Of a stretch of DNA of 38,133 nt, positions 2,946-20,445 are shown in pieces. The number at the start of each line of letters is the position of its first letter. Position 1 is the first letter of the stretch. A program made the position numbers and the translations under genes. The notes under the pieces are model-generated. The model was not told where the DNA came from. It saw nothing but the letters and a program-made list of their open reading frames with translations, and did not search any database. The stretch is from a bacterium. GTDB lineage: Bacteria > CAIJMQ01. The stretch is from NCBI GenBank assembly GCA_023135785.1, contig JAGLSL010000001.1, forward strand, positions 1-38,133, given 5' to 3'.

Positions 2946-4124
2946 ATGCAAAAAAAACTTGCGATAACAGGAAATGAAGCCATGGCTTATGCTATGAAAC
3001 AAATAAACCCCGATGTTGTAGCTGCTTATCCTATAACTCCGGCAACCGAGATTGTCCAGATATTTTCACAGTATGTCGCAGACGGAGATGTTAACACAGA
3101 ATTTGTAGCAGTTGAAAGCGAACATAGCGCTATGAGCGCAACTATCGGCGCATCCGCTGCAGGTTCAAGGGCAATGACAGCCACTTCGTCTCAAGGTTTG
3201 GCCTTGATGTTTGAAATGCTCTATATTGCCTCAGCTCTACGCCTTCCGATTGTTATGCCCGAAGTCAACAGAAGCCTAAGCGCGCCGATAAATATCCACG
3301 CTGACCATTCGGATACTATGGGAGCAAGAGACTGTGGTTGGATACAGATTTACTGCGAAAATTCACAGGAAGCATACGATAGTTTGATTCAAGCTGTAAG
3401 GATTGCCGAAGAGAGCCTCTTACCTATTATGGTAACAATAGACGGCTTTATTATCAGTCACGCTATGGAAGTAGTAGAGACTTTTGATAATAAAGAAATT
3501 CAAGATTTTATCGGCAAATATAAACCAGCTCATCCCTTATTAGACGTTAATCATCCCATCACAATCGGAGCGATAGATTTCAACGACTACTATTTTGAGC
3601 ATAAACGTTCACAGATTGAAGCTATGAACAATGTAGAACCGGTTATCCTGAAAATTGATCAGGAATTTAAGAAAAATTTCGGGCGAGGTTACGGACTTTT
3701 TGAAGAATATATGATGCAAGATGCTGAAACTGCCATAGTAGTTATTGGTTCTACAGCAGGCACAGCAAAAGTTGCGGTAGACAATTTAAGAAAGCAAGGG
3801 AAGAAAGTAGGACTTTTAAGGCTTAGAGTTTTCAGACCTTTCCCGGCTGAAAAACTAAGCAAAGCATTATCTCATTTAAAAGCTGTTGCAGTATTAGACC
3901 GTTCTACCGGAATGAATGCATATGCAGGTCCCGTGTGTACAGAAGTTGCTTCTTCTCTATATACTCATTCGGATAAAAAACCTAAAATAATAAATTATAT
4001 CTATGGACTTGGCGGAAGAGATATCTTTGTAGAAGATATCCAGAAGGTCTATGTGGATTTAGAGAATGTCGCAAAAGGCGAGAAAATAGAAAAGCTCATT
4101 AATTATATAGGAGTAAGAGAGTAA
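2946..4124 (+). CDS. porA: Pyruvate:ferredoxin oxidoreductase, alpha subunit
   Basis: PorA supplies the pyrimidine-binding half of the thiamine diphosphate site of the oxidoreductase. The N-terminal AYPITPATEI (residues 27-36) and the following VESEHSAMSATIGASAAGSR are highly conserved in pyruvate-specific alpha subunits. ALRLPIVMPEVNRSLSAP and the C-terminal transketolase-like domain, with VLLRLRVFRPFP-type residues, follow in the expected order. The length, 392 residues, is normal. GAGG upstream of the ATG is the ribosome site. The sequence fits pyruvate better than 2-oxoglutarate or branched-chain oxoacid enzymes, though substrate choice is an inference. Confidence 0.95.
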   Translation: MQKKLAITGNEAMAYAMKQINPDVVAAYPITPATEIVQIFSQYVADGDVNTEFVAVESEHSAMSATIGASAAGSRAMTATSSQGLALMFEMLYIASALRLPIVMPEVNRSLSAPINIHADHSDTMGARDCGWIQIYCENSQEAYDSLIQAVRIAEESLLPIMVTIDGFIISHAMEVVETFDNKEIQDFIGKYKPAHPLLDVNHPITIGAIDFNDYYFEHKRSQIEAMNNVEPVILKIDQEFKKNFGRGYGLFEEYMMQDAETAIVVIGSTAGTAKVAVDNLRKQGKKVGLLRLRVFRPFPAEKLSKALSHLKAVAVLDRSTGMNAYAGPVCTEVASSLYTHSDKKPKIINYIYGLGGRDIFVEDIQKVYVDLENVAKGEKIEKLINYIGVRE

Positions 4125-5265: not shown

Positions 5266-7842
5266 ATGACGGTAGAAAGACATTTTGCTTGTTGTGGAAT
5301 TCTGTTTCCCCTTATGTTCGGTTTCTTTTTTAGTCTTATAGGAACCGTTTTTAGTCAAGGAAACTCTTTGCCAGTTTATAAAAACACTCAGATCCCCGTC
5401 GAGGAACGCATAGAAGACCTGCTAAGTCGCATGAGTCTGGAGGAAAAAGTCGATATGCTTAGTGGGACCGGCTTCGAATCTAAACCTAACGAACGATTAG
5501 GGATTCCATCCTTGAATATGACCGATGGTCCTGTGGGTGTGCGATGGGGAAAGGCAACAGCTTTTCCTGCCGGCATAGCTATGGCAGCCAGCTGGGATAC
5601 TGCCCTTGTAGAGCGAATCGGTCAGGCGCTTGCTCGGGAAACAAAAGCTAAGGGACGAAATGTATTACTTGGACCGTGCGTGAATATTCAACGTGTGCCG
5701 CACGCAGGCCGCAATTTCGAAAGCTTTGGTGAAGACCCATATCTGGCATCTAGAATGGCGGTATCTTATGTAAAAGGCGTACAGAGCGAGAAAGTCATTG
5801 CTACAACTAAACATCTCGCCTGTAATAATCAGGAATACGAAAGAGGTAGCATTGACACCAGAGTAGACGAACGCGCCCTGCGCGAAATCTATCTCCCTGC
5901 GTTCAATGCCGCAGTGCAGGAAGCTGATTGCTGGGCTATAATGTCGGCATATAATAGACTCAACGGTCATTATTGCAGTTCAAACACTGCCCTCCTCACC
6001 GATATTTTAAAGAATGAGTGGGGATTCCAAGGTTTTACAATGTCCGATTGGGGAGCCGTGCACAGCACAATCCCAACCCTATTCGCAGGATTAGATATAG
6101 AAATGCCGGAGGCAAAGTATCTGATAAAAGAAGATGTGCTGGAAGCAGTAAAAAGCGGGACGGTGAAAGAGTCTAAGATTGACGATAAAATCCGACGTAT
6201 GTTACGGGCAATGTTTGTAATGGAATTTTTTGATCAGCCTGCCCGCCAAGGCTTTACAGGAGGGAAAGAACCCGACACGGGCGCATTGGATACGCCAGAG
6301 CACAGAAAACTCGCTTTGGAGACAGCCCAAGAAAGCATTGTGCTAATGAAAAACGAGAGAAACCTTCTGCCCCTCGACATTAAAAAAATAAAATCTATTG
6401 CTGTTATTGGTCCTAATGCGGCAATATCCAGGACTGGAGGAGGTGGTAGCTCAAGGGTAATACCTTTTTACTCAATCAGTCCTTTGGAAGCCCTGAGGAA
6501 TAAAATCGGTAAGGACGTAAAAATTTATTACTCACCGGGAATGTTTATGGAAGAGGATATGCCTCCCATTGAATCCGCCTATTTGCGCCCTCCTGAAGGA
6601 GAAGAGGAAACCCAAGGATTGTTGGGTGAATATTTTAACAATATGGAATTTAAGGGTGAGCCTATAATTCGCAAAATAGACAGACAAATCAATTTCCAGG
6701 GGGGGAATGATTTTCCTAAAGGCATCCCAGCCGACTATTTCTCTGTGCGATGGACAGGGAAACTTGTTCCGCCAAAATCAGCGAAATATATACTAAGCAT
6801 CAGCAGTGATGACGGTTCCCGTCTTTATCTGAACGGTAAACTTTTACTCGACAACTGGGGTCCCCATGCCTTACAGACCAAATCAGCCACTGTTGAACTA
6901 AAGAAAGGCAAACCGGTCGACATCAAGGTGGAATTCTGTGAAGAGGCTGGCGAAGCAGCGGTAATTTTGGGTTGGGATATAGCCCTTGATAATGTTAACC
7001 CTGCAACGGAAACAGAAGCAGTGAAGCTTGCCAAAAAATCGGATGCGGCAATTGTTTTTGCGGGTTTATCCAATCACATTGAGGGCGAGGGTTCCGATCG
7101 TAAAGACCTCTCTCTACCTTCCAGCCAGGAAAGTTTGATTAAAGCAATCGTAAAAGCTAATAAAAATACCGTTGTAGTCTTGAATAGCGGATCTCCAATA
7201 TTAATGAATGACTGGATTAATCAAACACCAGCCCTTTTGGAAGTATGGTATTCCGGACAAGAAGGTGGAAATGCGATTGTTGATGTGCTCTTCGGCCAGA
7301 TCAATCCTTCCGGAAAACTGCCTATGACTTTCCCGAAAAAGTGGGAAGATTTTCCATCTTACGGTAACTATCCCGGCGAAGACGGCGTTGTTTATTATAG
7401 AGAAGGTATTTTTGTCGGATATCGCCATTTTGATAAAGAGGACATTGAACCATTGTTCCCCTTTGGACACGGACTTAGCTACACAAAATTTTCCTACAGC
7501 GACATAAAAATCACACCAAGAAAAGTTAGTAAAGAGAAAAATGTGGAGGTGAGTTTTAATTTAAAAAATAGCGGTTTGCGTGAAGGCGCAGAAATTGTTC
7601 AGCTTTACCTGCAAGACATAGAATCTAGCGTGGAAAGGCCAAGCAAAGAACTAAAGGGATTCCAAAAAGTTTATCTAAAGCCCGGCGAGGAAAAACGCAT
7701 CAGTTTGACTATCAAGTCTTCTGATATGAAATTCTTTGATATATGTAGAAAAAGTTGGATGGCAGAAGCAGGTAAGTTCAAAGCAATGCTCGGTAGTTCT
7801 TCAAGAGATATTCGTATTGAAGGTGAATTTGAATTAAAATAG
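5266..7842 (+). CDS. Secreted glycoside hydrolase family 3 with PA14 insert (beta-glucosidase-like)
   Basis: This 858-residue protein hydrolyses beta-linked sugars from non-reducing ends. An N-terminal hydrophobic stretch (about residues 11-30) looks like a signal peptide. The GH3 N-domain carries the nucleophile Asp261 in GFTMSDWG. The second domain holds the candidate acid/base Glu in IEGEGSDR (Glu606 or Glu608). A PA14 carbohydrate-binding domain (about 449-572, starting GLLGEYFNN) is inserted between them, as in KglB/BglX-type enzymes. A fibronectin III-like domain ends the protein (about 745-850). AGGAGG precedes the ATG. Base composition looks more GC-rich than the neighbouring genes, which may mean horizontal gain. 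Exact substrate cannot be told. Confidence 0.93.
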   Translation: MTVERHFACCGILFPLMFGFFFSLIGTVFSQGNSLPVYKNTQIPVEERIEDLLSRMSLEEKVDMLSGTGFESKPNERLGIPSLNMTDGPVGVRWGKATAFPAGIAMAASWDTALVERIGQALARETKAKGRNVLLGPCVNIQRVPHAGRNFESFGEDPYLASRMAVSYVKGVQSEKVIATTKHLACNNQEYERGSIDTRVDERALREIYLPAFNAAVQEADCWAIMSAYNRLNGHYCSSNTALLTDILKNEWGFQGFTMSDWGAVHSTIPTLFAGLDIEMPEAKYLIKEDVLEAVKSGTVKESKIDDKIRRMLRAMFVMEFFDQPARQGFTGGKEPDTGALDTPEHRKLALETAQESIVLMKNERNLLPLDIKKIKSIAVIGPNAAISRTGGGGSSRVIPFYSISPLEALRNKIGKDVKIYYSPGMFMEEDMPPIESAYLRPPEGEEETQGLLGEYFNNMEFKGEPIIRKIDRQINFQGGNDFPKGIPADYFSVRWTGKLVPPKSAKYILSISSDDGSRLYLNGKLLLDNWGPHALQTKSATVELKKGKPVDIKVEFCEEAGEAAVILGWDIALDNVNPATETEAVKLAKKSDAAIVFAGLSNHIEGEGSDRKDLSLPSSQESLIKAIVKANKNTVVVLNSGSPILMNDWINQTPALLEVWYSGQEGGNAIVDVLFGQINPSGKLPMTFPKKWEDFPSYGNYPGEDGVVYYREGIFVGYRHFDKEDIEPLFPFGHGLSYTKFSYSDIKITPRKVSKEKNVEVSFNLKNSGLREGAEIVQLYLQDIESSVERPSKELKGFQKVYLKPGEEKRISLTIKSSDMKFFDICRKSWMAEAGKFKAMLGSSSRDIRIEGEFELK

Positions 7843-7874: not shown

Positions 7875-9839
7875 ATGAAAGATAAAAGTTTTTTAGACAG
7901 CAGATTAAAAGCGGAAGAAATAAAACATTTAACAGAGACTGCGCAACTGTGCAGGGGCGATATTATTAAAATGACGACTCTTGCCGGTTCGGGACATCCG
8001 GGCGGTTCATTATCATCAATAGATATACTTACTACTCTTTATTCCTACGCAAAAGTGGACCCAAAAGAACCTTATCATCCGTTAAGAGACCGAATCATAA
8101 TCTCGTGCGGACATATTTCTCCGGGCGTATATTCAACATTGGGAAGATTGGGATTCATAAATATCGACGATGTGATATCAGGTTTCCGAAATGAGAAAAC
8201 TCTTTTTGAGGGACACGTCGTAAGAGATGTCCCCGGCATAGAGTGGTCAACCGGTAATTTAGGACAAGGACTTTCAGCAGGTTGCGGTTTTGCCATTGCA
8301 TCAAGAATTAAGAAAGAGGACTGGAATGTTTTTGTGGTAATGAGCGACGGAGAGCAAGCAAAAGGACAAATTGCCGAAGCAAGAAAATTTGCCAAGAAAT
8401 ATAACCTTACAAACCTTACCGTTATTATAGACTACAATCAACTCCAGATTTCGGGATGGATTCATGATGTAATGCCTCAGAATATAAAAGCAAATTATGA
8501 AGCCGACGGATGGAAAGTTCTGGAGATTAACGGACATGATTATAAGCAAATCTACGAAGCCCTTAGAGAAGGGGCTCACAGTAAGAACAAGCTAGTTGCC
8601 ATTATTGCCCGAACCACTATGGGCAAAGGTATATCGTTTATAGAAAATAAATGGGAATTTCACGGTAAAGCGTTAAACATAGAACAATATAAACAGGCTA
8701 TAAAAGAATTAGGGCTTGTAGATGACTTAACTAAATACAGTAAAAGGAGAGAAAAAATTCATCCTTTGTTGCCGGGAAAAAGACCGGAAGAAAAAATAGA
8801 CATAGATGTAGGCACTCCATTTATATACGGACCTGAGGAAAAAACAGACAACAGAAGCGCATTCGGAAAAGCACTGGCTGATATCGGTAAACGTAATTTC
8901 CCTGCCCGCTTCGCAGCAGGCGGGCAAATAGGCAGGAATGTACCCGGCAAAAATCCTTTGGTTGTTTTGGATTGTGATTTGTCCACATCCGTAAAGACGG
9001 CTTCATTTGCAAATAACTGTTCTTGCAATTTTCTACAAGGAGGCGTTCAAGAGCATAACACTGCCACAGTTGCAGGAGCGCTTTCTACGGAAGGAATTGT
9101 AACCTTTTTTGCTGATTTTGGAGTATTCGGTATTGACGAGACCTATAACCAGCACCGACTAAACGATATTAATAATTCCAACCTTAAACTAATGTGCACC
9201 CATTGCGGATTAGACGTTGGAGAAGACGGCAAAACACACCAGTGCATTGATTACATAGGAGCGATGAGGAATCTGTTCGGATTTAAAATTATCGTCCCTG
9301 CCGACCCCAATCAGACCGATAGAGCTGTAAGATATATAGCTAAAAAAAGAGGTAACTTTATCGTTGCTATGGGGAGGTCAAAGCTTCCAATAGTTCTTGC
9401 AGAAGACTGCAGTCCATTATTTGGGGGGAAATATGAATTCCAATACGGCAAGGCGGACATTTTAAGAGACGGAAACGATGCTTCCATAATAACCTGCGGA
9501 GCCATTTCAGAAAAAGCCATCAAAGTTTCTGATTCTCTAAAAACAAAAGGGTATTCCGTCAGAGTTGTGAATATTTCATGCCCCTCTGATATAGACAAAG
9601 ACGCAATAAGACAAGCAGTTAATACGGGGCTTATCGTCACTCTCGAAGACCACCACAAAGAAACAGGATTAGGTTCTATTGTCGCGCAGGTAATAGCAGA
9701 AGAATCCCTCGTCGTAAAATTTGTAAAAATAGGCGTTGACCACTACGGCGAATCCGGAAAACCCGAAGAACTTTACAAGCTCTTTGGGATGGATGAAGCC
9801 GGCATAACTCAAACCGTATTATCTAATTTAAAAAAATAG
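7875..9839 (+). CDS. tkt: Transketolase with a short palindromic insert
   Basis: Transketolase moves two-carbon units between sugar phosphates in the non-oxidative pentose phosphate pathway, using thiamine diphosphate. SGHPGGSLSSIDIL near residues 38-51, the cofactor motif SDGEQ followed by IIDYNQ, and the catalytic Glu in GVQEHNT are all present. The three domains (PP, Pyr, C-terminal) are complete in 654 residues. In the linker between the first two, after SAFGKALADIGKRN, an extra stretch of about 18 residues (FPARFAAGGQIGRNVPGK) precedes NPLVVLDCDLS; other transketolases go straight from one to the other. The DNA of this stretch is a GC-rich palindrome. The ribosome site is weak. Rpe, encoded in this window, is in the same pathway. 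Confidence 0.95.
   Translation: MKDKSFLDSRLKAEEIKHLTETAQLCRGDIIKMTTLAGSGHPGGSLSSIDILTTLYSYAKVDPKEPYHPLRDRIIISCGHISPGVYSTLGRLGFINIDDVISGFRNEKTLFEGHVVRDVPGIEWSTGNLGQGLSAGCGFAIASRIKKEDWNVFVVMSDGEQAKGQIAEARKFAKKYNLTNLTVIIDYNQLQISGWIHDVMPQNIKANYEADGWKVLEINGHDYKQIYEALREGAHSKNKLVAIIARTTMGKGISFIENKWEFHGKALNIEQYKQAIKELGLVDDLTKYSKRREKIHPLLPGKRPEEKIDIDVGTPFIYGPEEKTDNRSAFGKALADIGKRNFPARFAAGGQIGRNVPGKNPLVVLDCDLSTSVKTASFANNCSCNFLQGGVQEHNTATVAGALSTEGIVTFFADFGVFGIDETYNQHRLNDINNSNLKLMCTHCGLDVGEDGKTHQCIDYIGAMRNLFGFKIIVPADPNQTDRAVRYIAKKRGNFIVAMGRSKLPIVLAEDCSPLFGGKYEFQYGKADILRDGNDASIITCGAISEKAIKVSDSLKTKGYSVRVVNISCPSDIDKDAIRQAVNTGLIVTLEDHHKETGLGSIVAQVIAEESLVVKFVKIGVDHYGESGKPEELYKLFGMDEAGITQTVLSNLKK
8897..8939. 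repeat. Palindromic element inside the transketolase gene
   Basis: An inner perfect stem TGCCCGC (8903-8909) / GCGGGCA (8920-8926) is nested in outer arms CCTGCC / GGCAGG, all much more GC-rich than the surrounding gene. It is translated in frame and coincides with residues that the transketolase family does not need. This resembles the Rickettsia palindromic elements in behaviour, though not in sequence as far as I can tell. Confidence 0.6.
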
Positions 9840-12837: not shown

Positions 12838-15462
12838 ATGAATAATTCTTCAGAGTTGTTTAAAATACCACCAAAATTCCTTGCGAGTATTGAAGAATGC
12901 GAAAAACAAATAACACAAACATTAAGACGATATCTGACTAATTTCCCACATTTTACAGACCATTCTATAGACCATTCTAAAAGAGTTTTAAAAAATACTA
13001 CTAGTCTCTTAGGGGAAAATATCAATTGCTTAAATGATGAGGAAAAATACATTTTGATAATGTCATGTTATTTACACGATGTGGGGATGATTCCATCCGA
13101 ACGCGATAAGAAAAAAATAGAAAAAAACGACGACTATAAAATATATAAGCAAGAGGAGCAAGGTAAAAATTTAGCCGATTATATTAGACACATACATCAT
13201 GAGCTAAGCTTTAAGTTTATTATTGGGAACTGGAAAGAAATAGGCATCATTAAAAATTATGCAGAAATTATAGCATTAGTTTGCAAAGGGCACAGAATCG
13301 AAAACTTATTAGATTATGATTTATTTGACCCAAAAATCAAAGTTAAAACTGATTATATTTGCATACCATTCCTTGCAGGACTATTACGTCTGGCAGATAC
13401 ATTAGATATAACTAATGACAGGGTTCCCGATATGTTATTCAACAAATACGTGCCTTTGGGCAAAATTAGTAAAAAAGAATGGCTAAAGCATCGCGCAAAT
13501 TACAAGCTTGAGTTTGAAAACGGCACGATCATTATTAAATCTGAGTGTGAACGTAGAGATTTATATGATACTTTGTTACTTCAATACGAAAATATTAAAA
13601 AGGAACTAAAATATTTTCGGAAGATTATATCGCGTTTACCTGGGATAAAATTAAAAGTGGATTATTACAATGTCGAACACGATATCAAGGTCTTCGGGTT
13701 TACTCCCAAGAATATAGGATTTACTTTTGACCTAAATAAGATTATTAGTATATTTGCTGGAAAGAGACTTTATCCCTCAAGTGACATTGCTATTCGCGAA
13801 GCTTTGCAAAATTCTATTGATACTTGTAGATTAAAAAAGAAAATAGACACCTCTTTTTCCCCACATATATTAGTATCCTTAAATAGAAATAATTTAACTA
13901 TAGAAGATAATGGCATGGGAATGGATGAGCTGATAGTTGAAAATTATTTTGCAAACCTAGGACATAGTTTTTATAGTCAAACATCTATTTCCTCAAAATA
14001 CGAGGCTATAAGCGAATTTGGTATTGGTGTACTAGCATATTTTTTATTGTGCGAATGCTTTGAAGTAGAAACTAAAATGGAAGACAAGAAATCTTTGAAA
14101 TTTAGGGTTACACAAGAATCAAATAGGAACTTCTCTTTTTATAAAACAAATCGAAAAAAAACGGGAACAAAAATAACATTCTTCTTAAAAGAACCCCTAT
14201 CTCTCGACGCCTTAAAGGCAAAAATAGATAATTATATAAGGTTTGTTGAGATACCAATTACACTTATAGAAGATTCTACTCGAATAAGTTGTGAAGCTCA
14301 AAAATTGGAACTTAGTATCAAGGGCGAACTGAGTGACAAGATCAAAGTTGTAGAGGAAGATGTAATCAATAAGTTAGTACTATTAGAAGAAAAAATTAAC
14401 ACAGATAGTTATTCTGGTATATGCGCTTTGATAGTTGCCAAGGAGAAGGGCAAAATACTAGTTCCGCTAAGCTTATTTTCTTTTCTAAGAAATCCAAGAG
14501 ATCTGTCAGTAAGTATATGCCACAAAGGTATTTTTGTGCACGATTTTTTCCCCAATCGAAATTTCTTTGGAAAAATAAATATAAACAAAAAACAGAAATT
14601 GAATTTAAACCGAAACGGCATTTTGAATGCTGATTACATACGTGAAATTATTTCAGATTTTCAATATACAATATTCAGTAAATTGTTTGCAAATTGGCAT
14701 GCTTTAAGCAAAAGAAGAAGAGTAGAGCTAACAAAGCAGTTTATCGAGTCATATATGCCATTAGTTATAGGCTGTACTAAAAATGTACAGAACCTACTTA
14801 TTAAAAATTTCGTTGTTACAATTTATAAAAACAGCAAAAAATATCATATCTTTCTAAATAACTTATTAGAAAAAAATGCTTGTTTTATTTTATGCCAGGG
14901 ATTATTTGAGAAACAATGGATATCCGGTGGAAGCTATGAGGCAAAGAAATTGATAAATTCTAGGTTGCCTATTTTCCCAGTAAAATATTCTAGTATAGGA
15001 GAAGAACAAGAGTTTTATCTTGATTTATTACTTAATTTTAAAACAAAAATAAAGTGTGAAACCGAGGTGGCATACTATGTTATTTACCCAGGACGAACTA
15101 GAAATCGTAAACGATTCCCATATTCGCATAGTATCGAATTGTTACAATTTGAAGGTTCTTATATTGGTGCATATCCAGGTATCAAGATAAAAGTAGCGTT
15201 TAATATTAACCATCCTTTAATACAATTTTTTGTAAATAAAGAAGCTAGTATTATAAGTAACAAAAAGATAAATAGCTTAGTGGAAGATTTTTTTGAGGAA
15301 CTACGCGATTTTGTATATTATGAGAACGAACGAGATGCTGATAGAATGAAAAAGGAATTTAAAGGATTAATGAAAGTTCTAGCCAAGGTCAATGCAGATA
15401 TGAAAAGCAATCTTAAATTAAGCAAGAAAGATTTCCCGTTATGGGTACAAAAGAAATTGTGA
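12838..15462 (+). CDS. HD-domain protein fused to an Hsp90-like (GHKL) ATPase
   Basis: This 874-residue protein has two recognisable parts. The N-terminal 200 residues hold an HD phosphohydrolase-like domain: H42/H46, the H80-D81 pair in CYLHDVGMIP, H118-H121, and the closing Asp187 in LLRLADTLD. Residues about 285-470 form a GHKL ATP-binding fold: N-box EALQNSID (321-328), G1 box DNGMGM (357-362) and G2 box FGIGVLAYF (394-402). The C-terminal 400 residues match nothing I know. No signal peptide or membrane span is seen. The DNA looks more AT-rich than the flanking core genes. Its position as sole large cargo between two yggU copies suggests an acquired, perhaps anti-phage, ATPase; function is not established. 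Confidence 0.8.
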   Translation: MNNSSELFKIPPKFLASIEECEKQITQTLRRYLTNFPHFTDHSIDHSKRVLKNTTSLLGENINCLNDEEKYILIMSCYLHDVGMIPSERDKKKIEKNDDYKIYKQEEQGKNLADYIRHIHHELSFKFIIGNWKEIGIIKNYAEIIALVCKGHRIENLLDYDLFDPKIKVKTDYICIPFLAGLLRLADTLDITNDRVPDMLFNKYVPLGKISKKEWLKHRANYKLEFENGTIIIKSECERRDLYDTLLLQYENIKKELKYFRKIISRLPGIKLKVDYYNVEHDIKVFGFTPKNIGFTFDLNKIISIFAGKRLYPSSDIAIREALQNSIDTCRLKKKIDTSFSPHILVSLNRNNLTIEDNGMGMDELIVENYFANLGHSFYSQTSISSKYEAISEFGIGVLAYFLLCECFEVETKMEDKKSLKFRVTQESNRNFSFYKTNRKKTGTKITFFLKEPLSLDALKAKIDNYIRFVEIPITLIEDSTRISCEAQKLELSIKGELSDKIKVVEEDVINKLVLLEEKINTDSYSGICALIVAKEKGKILVPLSLFSFLRNPRDLSVSICHKGIFVHDFFPNRNFFGKININKKQKLNLNRNGILNADYIREIISDFQYTIFSKLFANWHALSKRRRVELTKQFIESYMPLVIGCTKNVQNLLIKNFVVTIYKNSKKYHIFLNNLLEKNACFILCQGLFEKQWISGGSYEAKKLINSRLPIFPVKYSSIGEEQEFYLDLLLNFKTKIKCETEVAYYVIYPGRTRNRKRFPYSHSIELLQFEGSYIGAYPGIKIKVAFNINHPLIQFFVNKEASIISNKKINSLVEDFFEELRDFVYYENERDADRMKKEFKGLMKVLAKVNADMKSNLKLSKKDFPLWVQKKL

Positions 15463-15545
15463 TCAAGAGAGATTTCACAATTCTCATTACTTTGGACGGA
15501 ATATCAGGTACAATAGTAAAAATCCAAGAAGAACTCATAGAATAA
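15459..15545 (+). CDS. Very short ORF overlapping the HD-ATPase stop
   Basis: A GTG start overlaps the preceding TGA (GTGA), giving a 28-residue product with the stretch TILITLDGISGTIVKIQEEL. The overlap is typical of translational coupling, but there is no ribosome site of its own and no family I recognise. It may be the trimmed end of a longer gene left at the module border. Confidence 0.2.
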   Translation: MIKRDFTILITLDGISGTIVKIQEELIE

Positions 15546-15591
15546 TATAAAACTACTAAAATCATATCTTGTCTGATAAGTATAAAACCCT

Positions 15592-15801
15592 ATGCTCATC
15601 AAAGTAAAAGTCACCACAAATTCAAAGAAAGAAGAAGTCATTCAAAAATCCGAAGATAGTTTCCAAGTTAAAGTAAGAGCAAAACCGATACAAGGCCAAG
15701 CAAATAAAGCTGTAACTGAAGCGCTTGCTTCGTTTTTAAAACTCCCCGAAAATAAAGTCCGATTGGTGAGAGGTTTTAAAACGCCAAAGAAATTATTATA
15801 G
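15592..15801 (+). pseudogene. Second copy of yggU (DUF167), altered 3' end
   Basis: Sixty-nine codons are nearly identical to the intact copy at 20461-20679: I count about 14 base differences in 207. The five in the first 50 codons are all silent, and the rest cluster in the last 17 codons. This copy ends KKLL-stop, where the other ends NKLFEIK. DUF167/YggU proteins are small, widely conserved and of unknown function; the core QVKVRAKPIQGQANKAV is present here. The divergence pattern suggests it came with the accessory module from a related genome, not from a recent tandem duplication. It may still be translated. Confidence 0.7.
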
Positions 15802-15848
15802 CTATTGAAAATCAATTAAAATAAAAGATTATCTAACGAGGGGTAAAT

Positions 15849-16703
15849 ATGGGAACAACAAAAATCGCTTTATTTAAAGGTAAAAAAGTTAGGAAGACCC
15901 TGTATAAAAATGAGTGGTGGTTTGTGGTAAATGATGTAGTGGAGGCGCTTACTGATACGCCGAATGTTACGGACTATATTAAGAAATTTCGGATTAGAAA
16001 CGAAGAGCTCAACAAAGGGTGGGGACAAATTGTCACCCCCCTTTCCGTCCCGACCGCTGGCGGCCCGCAGATGTTAAATTGCGCCAACACTGAAGGCATT
16101 TTTCGCATAATTCAATCCATTCCGTCCCCTAAAGCCGAGCCTTTTAAACGTTGGCTGGCAAAAGTAGGCTATGAGCGAGTGCAAGAAATTGAAGATCCAG
16201 AGTTGGCAACCAAAAGAACCAAGATGCTCTATAAACTTAAGGGGTATTCTGAAAGCTGGATAGAAAAGCGAATGCGCGGTATTGCTATCCGCGAAGAACT
16301 TACAGATGAATGGCAAAAGCGCGGTGTAAAAGAGCAAAAAGAATACGAAATTTTGACCGCCGAAATTTCTAAAGCCGCTTTTGGTGTGACACCGAGTGAA
16401 TATAAAAAACTAAAAGGACTGAAACGGCAAAATTTGCGCGACCATATGGATGACTTGGAATTGATTTTCAATATGCTTGGCGAGCGAGTGACAACCGAAA
16501 TTTCTCAACAAGAAAAGCCGGATACCTTTGTAAAAAATAAAAAGGTGGCAAAAAGAGGCGGAGGCGTTGCCGGAAATGCCCGAAAACAAACAGAAAAAGA
16601 GATCGGTAGGAGCGTGGTTTCCCCAAAAAATTACCTGCAAACGCCGGAAAGCCGGAAACAGCTCAAGGCAAAGAAGTTCACCCCGTTAGATAAAAAAAAA
16701 TAG
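15849..16703 (+). CDS. Bro-N / DinD-like protein
   Basis: The N-terminal 110 residues (IALFKGKKVRKTLYKNEWWF, then DVVEALTDTPNVTDYIKK) are a Bro-N domain, found in phage antirepressors and baculovirus BRO DNA-binding proteins. KAEPFKRWLAKVGYERVQEIEDPEL and the C-terminal GGGVAGNARKQTEKEIGR with VVSPKNYL resemble the DNA-damage-inducible DinD family, of similar length (284 residues here). It starts after a GAGGGG site. It is followed by a degraded HTH-like frame and the helicase gene. Such proteins commonly sit in mobile or defence regions. A regulatory or DNA-damage role is plausible but unproved. Confidence 0.85.
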   Translation: MGTTKIALFKGKKVRKTLYKNEWWFVVNDVVEALTDTPNVTDYIKKFRIRNEELNKGWGQIVTPLSVPTAGGPQMLNCANTEGIFRIIQSIPSPKAEPFKRWLAKVGYERVQEIEDPELATKRTKMLYKLKGYSESWIEKRMRGIAIREELTDEWQKRGVKEQKEYEILTAEISKAAFGVTPSEYKKLKGLKRQNLRDHMDDLELIFNMLGERVTTEISQQEKPDTFVKNKKVAKRGGGVAGNARKQTEKEIGRSVVSPKNYLQTPESRKQLKAKKFTPLDKKK

Positions 16704-16705
16704 AT

Positions 16706-16855
16706 ATGGAAATAAGAGAAATTTTGCAGGGGATTATACGCGATTTTTCAGCGACACTTGAGCGAGAACTTAATCGTCAACTAAGTGAAGCATAGAAATT
16801 TATGACAAAAATTGCCAAAGCGCTGGGCGTTTCAATTGGGAATTTAATAAAATAA
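16706..16855 (+). pseudogene. Degraded small frame with HTH-regulator-like tail
   Basis: A 29-codon frame (MEIREILQGIIRDFS...) ends in TAG at 16793-16795. The same frame then continues as KFMTKIAKALGVSIGNLIK to a TAA three bases before the helicase ATG. KIAKALGVSI is the usual closing helix of XRE-type regulators. The whole looks like the 3' remnant of a regulator gene with one in-frame stop, or two tiny peptides. The last part resembles the tail fused to the first yggU scrap. Confidence 0.4.
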
Positions 16856-16857
16856 CT

Positions 16858-19596
16858 ATGAGTACGATAAATAAAATTATTGGATATTGGCTTGACTGTA
16901 TTAAGCAAGAAGATGTTTTGGCAAAAGACATTTCTATAAATGTGCGAACAAAAGCAACGCTCTATCCTTTTAGTTATGACCCTTTTATTTTTAACAAATC
17001 AGAAAACGAAGTGTCAGTTACTGATGAAAAAATAGTCAAATTAATAAAAGGTTCGAAAGTTCAAAATAAGGAAATATATTACGGCTATCCTCTCTTATTT
17101 TATTTTGATAGCAAAAAACAAGAAAATCGTGTGGCTCCACTTTTTGTAACAAAAATAAGTTTTACTGAAGACGAACAAAATATTTTTCTACACAAAGATG
17201 ACCCAGTCCCAAATTGTGGAATACAAGCATTAAATAAAATGGGGTTGAGAACAGAAGAAATCGCAGAAATAAATCAAGAATTTGAAAAAATATTTAAAGG
17301 AGATATTTCTGATTCAAAAACACTCGTTAAAAAATGTTTGGATATTCTTCTTGAAGAAACAAATTTTTCGATCAACGAAGAAATAAATCCTCTAAAATTA
17401 ACAAACACAGAGAAACTTTCTAAAATAATGGGTGCTGGTCTGTATAATAAAAGTTTAATTTTTGTTGGCGAAAACACTCTTTTTAATATGAGTCTTATTA
17501 AGGACTTGATGAATTTAAAAACAAGAACGGATACGGAAGAAACAGCACTTTCTTTTATAACGAACCAAACTGAACATATTGATAATACTATCAATTCTAA
17601 TAATCCATTAGTGTTGCCGTTTCCGTTAAATGACTATCAGATTAGCGCACTTAAAAGCGTGTTTGAAAACAAACTATCTGTAATTACTGGACCACCAGGG
17701 ACTGGAAAAAGTCAATTTATAATGAATTTACTTATAAATTTATTTTTGAATGATAAAAAAGTTTTATTTGTAAGTCATACAAATGAAGCTGTTGATGTAG
17801 TTAACGAAAAAATAAATAGTGATTTTCAGAATTTACTTTTTCGTACAGGTAAAAAAGAACTTAGGCAAGATTTAACGAAAAAATTTAATGAGCTTTCTTT
17901 AGATTCTCAAAAAAAGAGAAATATAACTACAATATCACTAAAAAGAGTTGGTATTCTTTGGCAAAATATTATAGACAATAAAAAATTACTTTTGAAGATT
18001 GATGAGCTTGAAGGAAAGGTAAATGAATTATATGAATTAAAAAAACTCAAAAGTGGGATAATTTTATTTTTTAAATTTAAATACTATTTGTGGAAACTGC
18101 AAAGAATGCCTCAAAAAATAAATGTGGAAAAGGAAATTAAAAGAATAGAAGAAGATTTTTTCAAATTATCAAGAGAATATGTAAAATCTATCTACGCAAA
18201 CAAAATGCTTGGCAAATGGGGAGCGTCCAATAAGGCAAAAGATTTTTTACACGAAGTTGAAACTACAAGCTTCCACGAAGACATAGGCGATCATTCTTTT
18301 ACTAAAGCTCTTGAGGTGTTGAAAATTTGGTCATCAACACTCAAATCTCTTAATAGAACTTTTCCCCTAAAAGCTGGTATTTTCGATTATGTAATTTTTG
18401 ACGAAGCATCACAAATAGATTTACCCTCCGCCGCTCCCGCTCTTTATAGAGCAAAAAAAGTAGTTGTAGTAGGAGACCCTATGCAACTTTCACATATCGC
18501 TGGAATTACTAAAGATTTAGACAAGGGAATCGCGAAGACATATAATCTGCAAGAACAAGAAGAATTATATCCATCAAAAATAAGATACTATGATGTTTCG
18601 CTTTATCGCTGTGCAGAATCCTGTTTAAGCAAACCGCCTGTTTTGCTTGCTAAACATTATCGGTCAGAAGATCAAATAATTGATTTATGTAATCAGGTAT
18701 TTTACAGTGGAAAATTAAGTATTGCTTCAAATCTTAACTATTCAAATTGGCCAAGCAGTTTGCCTCTAGGGATTAAGTGGGAAGATTGTAGTGGGACAGT
18801 AATGAGGCCTCCAAGCGGTAGTAGGGTGAATAGAGATGAAGCATTACAAGTAAATAATGTTTTTCAAGGGATTATAAAAGAAATTAAAGATTCAAATTTA
18901 TCAATAGGAATCGTAACTCCATACTCACAGCAACAAAAAGAAATATATCGCATAATTACACAAGCAACCCCGCAAGATATTATTGAAAAACATAATGTCA
19001 AAATACTTACAGCTCACAAGTTTCAAGGTTCTGAAAAAGATATTATGATTTTTTCTACAGTTCTTTCTTCCAAGGGAAACGGGAACAATGATCGTTGGTA
19101 TAACGCTCATCCCCAAATACTCAATGTGGCGTTGTCACGAGCAAAATATCTTTTATATATTGTTGGAGATAAACAATTTTGCTATACGAGAAATGGAATC
19201 TTAGGGAAGATTGCAGAAACTTATGATAAAATTAAAAAACAGGAAGAATTTGAAGAACAATATTTTTCTGGCAATTTTGATTCACCAACAGAACTTTTAC
19301 TCTATCAAAAATTGCAAAAAATTGATTTTGAATCACTCGGTTATAAACTCATCCCAAAATTTGTTACGAAAAGATATACTTTAGATTTTGCCTTGGCGGG
19401 AGAAAGAAAATTAAATATTGAATGCGATGGTTTTGGGAATCATAATATAATTGACGGATTACCAGTAATTGAGGACATCGAGAGAGATGAGTATCTTGTA
19501 AAAGAAGGGTGGGAAGTATTAAGATTTCCAAATCATCAAATAATCACAAAAATAGATTTTGTGATTAAAGAAATTTTGGAAAAGATTAAAAAATAG
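16858..19596 (+). CDS. SF1 (UPF1/DNA2-like) helicase with C-terminal DUF559/Vsr-like nuclease
   Basis: The 912-residue protein has helicase motifs in order: Walker A GPPGTGKS (about 279-286), VSHTNEAVD, Walker B DEAS (515-518), VVGDPMQLSHIAG, TAHKFQGSEKD (about 718-728) and NVALSRAKYLLYIVGD. The region between Walker A and B is long and partly coiled-coil. The last 100 residues are a PD-(D/E)XK nuclease of DUF559/Vsr type: Asp843, Glu855-Cys-Asp857-Gly, then RDEYLVKEGWEVLRF. Helicase-Vsr fusions are typical of anti-phage systems, but I cannot match this to a named one. The start ATG lies two bases after the HTH-like remnant and has no strong ribosome site. The gene is strongly AT-rich. Confidence 0.88.
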   Translation: MSTINKIIGYWLDCIKQEDVLAKDISINVRTKATLYPFSYDPFIFNKSENEVSVTDEKIVKLIKGSKVQNKEIYYGYPLLFYFDSKKQENRVAPLFVTKISFTEDEQNIFLHKDDPVPNCGIQALNKMGLRTEEIAEINQEFEKIFKGDISDSKTLVKKCLDILLEETNFSINEEINPLKLTNTEKLSKIMGAGLYNKSLIFVGENTLFNMSLIKDLMNLKTRTDTEETALSFITNQTEHIDNTINSNNPLVLPFPLNDYQISALKSVFENKLSVITGPPGTGKSQFIMNLLINLFLNDKKVLFVSHTNEAVDVVNEKINSDFQNLLFRTGKKELRQDLTKKFNELSLDSQKKRNITTISLKRVGILWQNIIDNKKLLLKIDELEGKVNELYELKKLKSGIILFFKFKYYLWKLQRMPQKINVEKEIKRIEEDFFKLSREYVKSIYANKMLGKWGASNKAKDFLHEVETTSFHEDIGDHSFTKALEVLKIWSSTLKSLNRTFPLKAGIFDYVIFDEASQIDLPSAAPALYRAKKVVVVGDPMQLSHIAGITKDLDKGIAKTYNLQEQEELYPSKIRYYDVSLYRCAESCLSKPPVLLAKHYRSEDQIIDLCNQVFYSGKLSIASNLNYSNWPSSLPLGIKWEDCSGTVMRPPSGSRVNRDEALQVNNVFQGIIKEIKDSNLSIGIVTPYSQQQKEIYRIITQATPQDIIEKHNVKILTAHKFQGSEKDIMIFSTVLSSKGNGNNDRWYNAHPQILNVALSRAKYLLYIVGDKQFCYTRNGILGKIAETYDKIKKQEEFEEQYFSGNFDSPTELLLYQKLQKIDFESLGYKLIPKFVTKRYTLDFALAGERKLNIECDGFGNHNIIDGLPVIEDIERDEYLVKEGWEVLRFPNHQIITKIDFVIKEILEKIKK

Positions 19597-19977
19597 TTTC
19601 AGTCGCTCGCTCCGCGAGCAATCCAGTTTTTTTCGGACGGACGGCGGAGCAAAAGGGCAAAAAGGAAGGGGGTTTGGAAGGAATTTTTGCGCTTTTGCGA
19701 TTAAAATTAGAGCGTTTCCGCTTTTCTCTGATTAAGAGAAACACAAAACAGATAAATTTTCTTTTCCTTTTAAAAGAAAAAATGGGGGCAGAAATAAATT
19801 AAAAAAATGTATTAAAAAAATTTCTGTTTTGGTTTCGCCGAAGCTCGCAAGAGCGGAGGCAGACCTAATATCCGAAGCTCTGCTTTGCAGGGTAAAGGCG
19901 AGTTTCGCTCTTACTTCGTCGGGACTACGGCGGACAAAGTCCGCCAAATTCTTATCAAATCATAAAATTTAAAAATC
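19597..19977. other. Intergenic region rich in GC hairpins
   Basis: This 381-base spacer has no credible gene. It mixes AT-rich stretches with GC-rich inverted repeats: GCTCGCTCCGCGAGC near 19607, TTTCTCT/AGAGAAA near 19722, TTTTCTTTT/AAAAGAAAA near 19758, several CTTCGG/CCGAAG-type motifs between 19838 and 19920, and a perfect GGCGGAC-aaa-GTCCGCC hairpin at 19929-19945. The last lies about 30 bases before the HEPN-like gene. The first hairpins may end helicase transcription. Confidence 0.5.
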
Positions 19978-20445
19978 ATGAATCAAATAATCAGGGAAAA
20001 ATTAAGTTTGTTTAGGGGAACTATTATTTCAGATGCAACGGTAATAGAAAGGGCGCTTGGTTGGAAACTCAGGACATATTTTTTCCCTAAAACTAACCAA
20101 CAAGCATCAGATTTTCTTTATTATATTATAGAAACATCCCATTTCAGTTTTGATAAAAAGATCTCGCTCTACGAGCAAATCCCATATTTCAAAAAGTTAA
20201 AGCAGTATTCAAAAATAAAAAACTCCTTAAGATTTGTTCAACAATTAAGAAATGCGTTAGCTCATTGGGATTTAGACGAAAAGATGAGTAATAAGAATGA
20301 AATTGTTATTTATAGCCCAGTTACTTTTAAGAGATTAAAATTAAATAATGAAATAATGGGGAGATTTCAAGAACACGAAAGAATTCTTTTAAAAGCATTT
20401 GGTTGGGAACAAACCCTTAGAGCAAAATTAGAAGAACAGAGTTAG
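19978..20445 (+). CDS. Small alpha-helical protein with HEPN-like RNase motif
   Basis: A 155-residue protein with no strong family match. The only diagnostic motif is RNALAH (residues 91-96), an R-x4-H with a polar residue after the Arg, which is the catalytic motif of HEPN ribonucleases. The rest looks helical and charged. HEPN proteins act as toxins or as effectors of abortive defence and often lie next to helicase-nuclease genes, as here. There is no MNT-type nucleotidyltransferase antitoxin beside it. It has no obvious ribosome site. Assignment to HEPN is tentative because a single short motif can occur by chance. Confidence 0.5.
   Translation: MNQIIREKLSLFRGTIISDATVIERALGWKLRTYFFPKTNQQASDFLYYIIETSHFSFDKKISLYEQIPYFKKLKQYSKIKNSLRFVQQLRNALAHWDLDEKMSNKNEIVIYSPVTFKRLKLNNEIMGRFQEHERILLKAFGWEQTLRAKLEEQS

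Follow-up and report, generated by a model that had tools for sequence, protein, structure and literature searches.

A genome-wide family of short palindromic repeats, present in frame in the transketolase and other protein genes of two bacterial congeners

The stretch of DNA analysed here (38,133 nt; the window) carries, inside its transketolase gene, one member of a real, genome-wide repeat family, which is more extensive than a first, sequence-only reading of the window had reported. Comparison with related genomes supports the view that selfish palindromes may add residues to the loops of housekeeping enzymes, as the longer palindromes of Rickettsia do. Protein genes with frequent in-frame insertions of palindromes have been described chiefly in Rickettsia and Wolbachia, which are both intracellular; the family described here would be another such system, apparently of independent origin, in a bacterium that is not related to either.

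The palindrome claimed in transketolase by the sequence-only reading is present, and its bounds, together with those of the other features of the window, are given in Table 1. The full 36-nt stretch reads CCTGCCCGCTTCGCAGCAGGCGGGCAAATAGGCAGG, and RNFPARFAAGGQIGR is an example of a peptide that spans it. In the same-family genome G003 the site is empty and reads GTAATTTTAATATG, and the more distant transketolases in an alignment of homologues likewise have no insert. In the congener G001 (Candidatus Omnitrophota bacterium in its deposited record, JAHJCU010000004.1), this place is taken by another hairpin, 33 nt long, CAAGCAGGCGGG, in a protein 97% identical to that of the window. Thus the close relatives do not all carry the same segment with no repeat elsewhere: the segment is absent from one and represented by a different copy in the other. 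Transketolase was not found in G002, and the order of insertion at this site rests on G003 and more distant relatives only. The extra segment had been put at about 18 residues, a figure that arises because human transketolase is 18 residues shorter in this region; compared with near relatives, the segment is real but amounts to 12.

Table 1. Features of the window that carry, or lack, a copy of the element.
Feature	Position	Strand	Description	Basis
Transketolase gene	7875..9839	+	654 aa, frame intact	Pfam Transketolase_N, Transket_pyr, Transketolase_C
In-frame insert in transketolase gene	8901..8936	+	36 nt, residues 343-354 = PARFAAGGQIGR	Empty site in relative
Canonical 24-nt element	8901..8924	+	CCTGCCCGCTTCGCAGCAGGCGGG	Imperfect hairpin: T-G wobble and internal mismatch (DNA fold)
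12-nt tail of transketolase insert	8925..8936	+	CAAATAGGCAGG	Directly after 24-nt element
Second in-frame copy	6238..6264	+	27 nt, CCTGCCCGCCAAGGCTTTACAGGAGGG, PARQGFTGG	9-residue gap in G003 orthologue (70% identical, L070)
GH3 beta-glucosidase-like gene carrying the 27-nt copy	5266..7842	+	PA14 and Fn3-like domains	Pfam
Empty porA site	3966..3982	+	CATTCGGA / TAAAAAACC, junction 3973/3974	G001 filled: 24-nt element, DLPASQQAG
porA, 2-oxoacid:ferredoxin oxidoreductase alpha subunit, without element	2946..4124	+		Pfam POR_N, PFOR_II

An AlphaFold2 model of the transketolase (mean pLDDT 86.9, built on an alignment of 22 relatives) places the insert between a helix at residues 326-341 and a strand at 362-366, each the first of its kind in the Pyr domain, with the segment 344-358 (the insert and its edge) being one of only two in the model with a pLDDT below 50. 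Since Pfam also puts the insert inside the Pyr domain, we read it, on the model, as a loop of that domain and not as part of the linker between the PP and Pyr domains. Of the earlier proposal of a tolerated loop in that linker, it is the loop that survives and the linker that does not.

To describe the family we gathered 84 distinct copies from G000 (the window's genome) and G001. Aligned, they consist of constant, C/G-rich arms, CCTGCCCGC and GCAGGCGGG, flanking a highly variable core, and the exact canonical 24-nt sequence accounts for 10 of the 84; the common forms are 24, 25 (with one extra A), 27, 33 and 39 nt long. The element strand folds as an imperfect hairpin with wobble pairing and one internal mismatch. 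The 24-, 27- and 33-nt forms examined are free of stop codons in all six frames, and a copy in a protein loop would therefore add 8-11 residues and leave the gene unbroken; across genes, in-frame copies encode 8-16 extra amino acids. Searching the genomes for other copies, as the sequence-only reading had suggested, found dozens, in genes and in spacers. The 14-mer CCTGCCCGCTTCGC, at two mismatches or fewer, occurs 42 times in G000, 45 times in G001 and twice in G003, as against 3 (G000) and 2 (G001) for the reversed 14-mer at the same threshold, and the reversed sequence of the whole element gave 0 matches both in 793 kb of G001 and in the window. BLAST against the window's own genome gave 9 matches (E≤1e-3) besides the transketolase copy. 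Together with the counts above and their far lower controls, these put the transketolase palindrome beyond chance. The genomes compared here are draft assemblies, mostly or wholly metagenomic.

We then used filled and empty sites to examine the history of individual copies, aligning orthologues from G000, G002, G003, G004 and G005 at the protein and DNA levels and naming genes by Pfam. Among the aligned genomes, sites in the genes for phosphofructokinase (PfkA), valyl-tRNA synthetase (ValS), phenylalanyl-tRNA synthetase beta (PheT), a DEAD helicase, PorA, UvrC, an RseC-like protein, a LarC-like nickel insertion protein and V/A-ATPase A are filled only in G001, and for the first seven of these, up to the RseC-like gene, G000 has the empty site; a copy in DNA ligase, filled in G001, was compared with G003 only. 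The reverse, a site filled in G000 but empty in G001, is seen in a gene of the Sua5 family (24 nt), in an AsmA-like gene (48 nt) and at one intergenic 24-nt copy; a 48-nt copy in L107 is compound. In ParB, V/A-ATPase B, CoaBC, RecJ and transketolase, both congeners have a filled site where other relatives have an empty one. The insertion junctions are exact, save for occasional neighbouring substitutions, and no target-site duplication was seen at the aligned filled and empty sites in either the DNA or the protein alignments. Aligned 'insertions' that were not clean (GatA-like, IspE N-terminus, Band_7) were kept out of the key evidence. A short gene of G000 (L109 1496-1640, G000:C2) has a 33-nt copy, and a 20-nt deletion relative to G001 breaks its frame, so that it is a pseudogene or else was misassembled.

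Another way to view the family is through the lengths of the copies that genes retain. Over a contiguous 793 kb of G001, with genes called by a simple script using codon use and every copy placed, 22 copies lie inside genes, 23 between genes and 3 at gene edges. All 22 of the intragenic copies are divisible by three (24 nt in seven, 27 in five, 33 in eight and 39 in two), compared with 12 of the 23 intergenic ones, among which 25-mers, with 10 copies, outnumber every other form; this difference gives Fisher P=2e-4, and the intragenic copies set against an expectation of one third give P=3e-11. No 25-mer lies wholly inside a gene among the 22 intragenic copies, and one overlaps a predicted gene edge. 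The intragenic copies of G001 occupy all six settings of frame and strand. Copies are also rarer in genes than expected, with 46% of them there compared with 89% of the sequence being coding, a shortfall that the loss of many insertions would produce.

We consider it highly probable that these are copies of a short REP-like palindromic family, usually 24-39 nt long, which spreads as selfish DNA and is found in genes and spacers, with frame kept in genes. Insertion would be roughly indifferent to genes, and purifying selection would then remove copies that break the frame or are badly placed; what moves may be a hairpin of single-stranded DNA, with an HUH/REP-type transposase, or one of another kind, acting on it in trans. 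The flanks of the 84 copies have a weak preference only: an A tends to precede the element, and A/T-rich bases tend to follow. As a candidate mobiliser we considered RAYT (Y1_Tnp). Genes for Y1 (HUH) transposases are present in G000, G002 and G005, and none was found in G001, the genome with most copies; no good copies of the element lie beside the Y1 transposase genes of G000, and the candidate was rejected. The analysis found no enzyme that would mobilise the element.

The spread of a selfish family has to be weighed against rival readings. Loop-length variation is common among transketolases and homologues differ in the region of the insert, so that the segments could be ordinary lineage-specific loop insertions and the transketolase palindrome a coincidence; however, each genome has dozens of copies of the sequence, some of them in spacers, reversed controls give 0, and the congeners have exact empty sites. 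We count this explanation, to which we give almost no credence, as refuted. The elements might instead be kept for a function, as mRNA hairpins that tune expression, as protection of transcripts or as useful peptide loops. Their hairpins are stable, and some intragenic copies (in transketolase, ParB, CoaBC and V-ATPase B) are common to both species, but the congeners differ in where their copies lie, copies occur in every frame and on both strands, the genes that carry them are unrelated to one another and hold fewer than their share, and the transketolase loop has the very low model confidence expected of a disordered loop. We regard maintenance by function as very improbable.

A closer rival, though still an unlikely one, is that copies arise with no transposase, by template switching, hairpin-primed synthesis or gene conversion between copies. 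Errors of this kind would account for nesting in hairpin loops, for rapid change of the core and for the lack of target duplications; the cores do vary greatly while the arms stay constant, the 33-nt insert of G001 and the 36-nt insert of the window differ though the protein around them is 97% identical, and nested copies occur within hairpin elements in L108 and RecJ. Against this, copies of 24 and 25 nt are found in identical form at many unrelated sites whose flanks have little in common, and a discrete mobile unit therefore fits better than local errors. Replication errors could nonetheless reshape copies after insertion. Returning to the selfish family, a further and less likely possibility is that units of 3n nucleotides (24, 27 and 33 nt) with no stops and no target duplication form a gene-compatible branch shaped for tolerance, with the 25-nt sister surviving only outside coding sequence, and that the system may be widespread.

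The nested copies bear on how the transketolase insert may have reached its present form. In L108 a 24-nt copy sits within a 33-nt element, after base 21, whereas in G001 this 33-nt element is uninterrupted; in RecJ a 39-nt element has a 27-nt copy at the apex of its hairpin. The 12-nt tail of the transketolase insert is probably, judging by comparison with G001 and with the nested copy of L108, a remnant of an older 33-nt element of the kind found in G001. A 33-nt element would have entered the transketolase gene before the split of the two species, and in the window's lineage a 24-nt element would have nested in it after base 21, giving 57 nt. Deletion between two CCTGCCCGCTT repeats, 21 nt apart, would then leave 57-21=36 nt, the length of the present insert. 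The predicted 36-nt product agrees with the window at all but three positions (33 of 36), and the three mismatches are all in the last 12 nt. From this we infer that nesting followed by repeat-mediated deletion could explain the insert.

The likeness to Rickettsia that the sequence-only reading drew, of a repeated palindrome making new protein segments in loops, is borne out by the dozens of copies and by their presence and absence among relatives. Rickettsia palindromic elements (RPEs) are ~100-150 bp long and lie in frame in genes (PMC3767692, PMC2229807); they occupy unrelated conserved genes and spacers, and different elements may share one site in orthologues (PMC3767692; PMC2229807). Protein-coding palindromes occur in Wolbachia as well, as cited there. 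The present family is like these in being a repeated palindrome found in frame in conserved protein genes and in spacers. It differs from RPEs in its length in genes, 24-39 nt (48 nt in the compound copy of L107), in its exact presence and absence between congeners, in its nested copies and in a lineage unrelated to Rickettsiales, and, compared by length and behaviour, it is distinct from the described RPE families. In size and form it agrees instead with REP elements, which are imperfect hairpins of 20-40 nt in many copies, some of them intragenic (PMC3733652). Unlike REP elements, however, it has no GTAG/CGTC tag, with none conserved within 15 nt on either side of the 84 copies, and no linked RAYT (Y1) transposase adjoining it in G000 or found in G001; about half of its copies are inside genes, many of them conserved. 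ERIC and the Correia/NEMIS MITEs are also small, non-autonomous palindromic repeats capable of fusing in frame with genes, but they are ~100-170 bp long and most have target-site duplications (PMC2229807), whereas the present elements are shorter and have exact empty sites without such duplication. The family thus has the behaviour of RPEs and the size of REPs, and lacks the tag of REPs, the length of RPEs and the duplication of MITEs. We found no earlier report of palindromic insertions in Omnitrophota or candidate phyla in the literature, of which our coverage was incomplete.

The significance of the two congeners is that, being at different stages, they give a view of selfish DNA creating new protein segments. 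The system allows tolerant proteins and loops to be counted and the frame filter to be tested directly, and it opens a search for the enzyme that inserts a 24-nt hairpin without target duplication.

In a sample of 386 genomes, some others also have several copies with these arms, among them G007 and G294, which are outside the class; the copies examined in G007 and G219, two genomes outside the class, are mostly in spacers. Elements with these arms also lie in frame in putative transposase-like genes of G294, outside the class (L309 884-907), and of G005, a distant class member (L313 1541-1573), and two matches to the element pattern are in viral contigs.

Some copies lie within larger repeats in both congeners. 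Several of the intergenic 25-nt copies of G001 (L144, L145, L138, L140) are embedded in a longer repeated sequence, TAACTCGTAAAG[element]CGTAATTCGTAA, and may belong to a compound repeat. Other intergenic repeats of G000 (L112, L120, L129, L131, L121) start with GTAGTTGCC or TGTAGTGGC and resemble GTAG-tagged REPs, and some of these GTAG-REP-like repeats contain copies of the present element. Within the window, the GH3 gene stands between porB and transketolase, as it does in G003, and is absent there from G001 (L069, L070), where the space from porA to transketolase could hold porB only. Farther along, positions 12838-20445 hold genes for an HSP90-like ATPase, a possible Bro-N-like protein and a helicase with a nuclease-like tail, and, judged by eye from the translations, this looks like a mobile or defence region.
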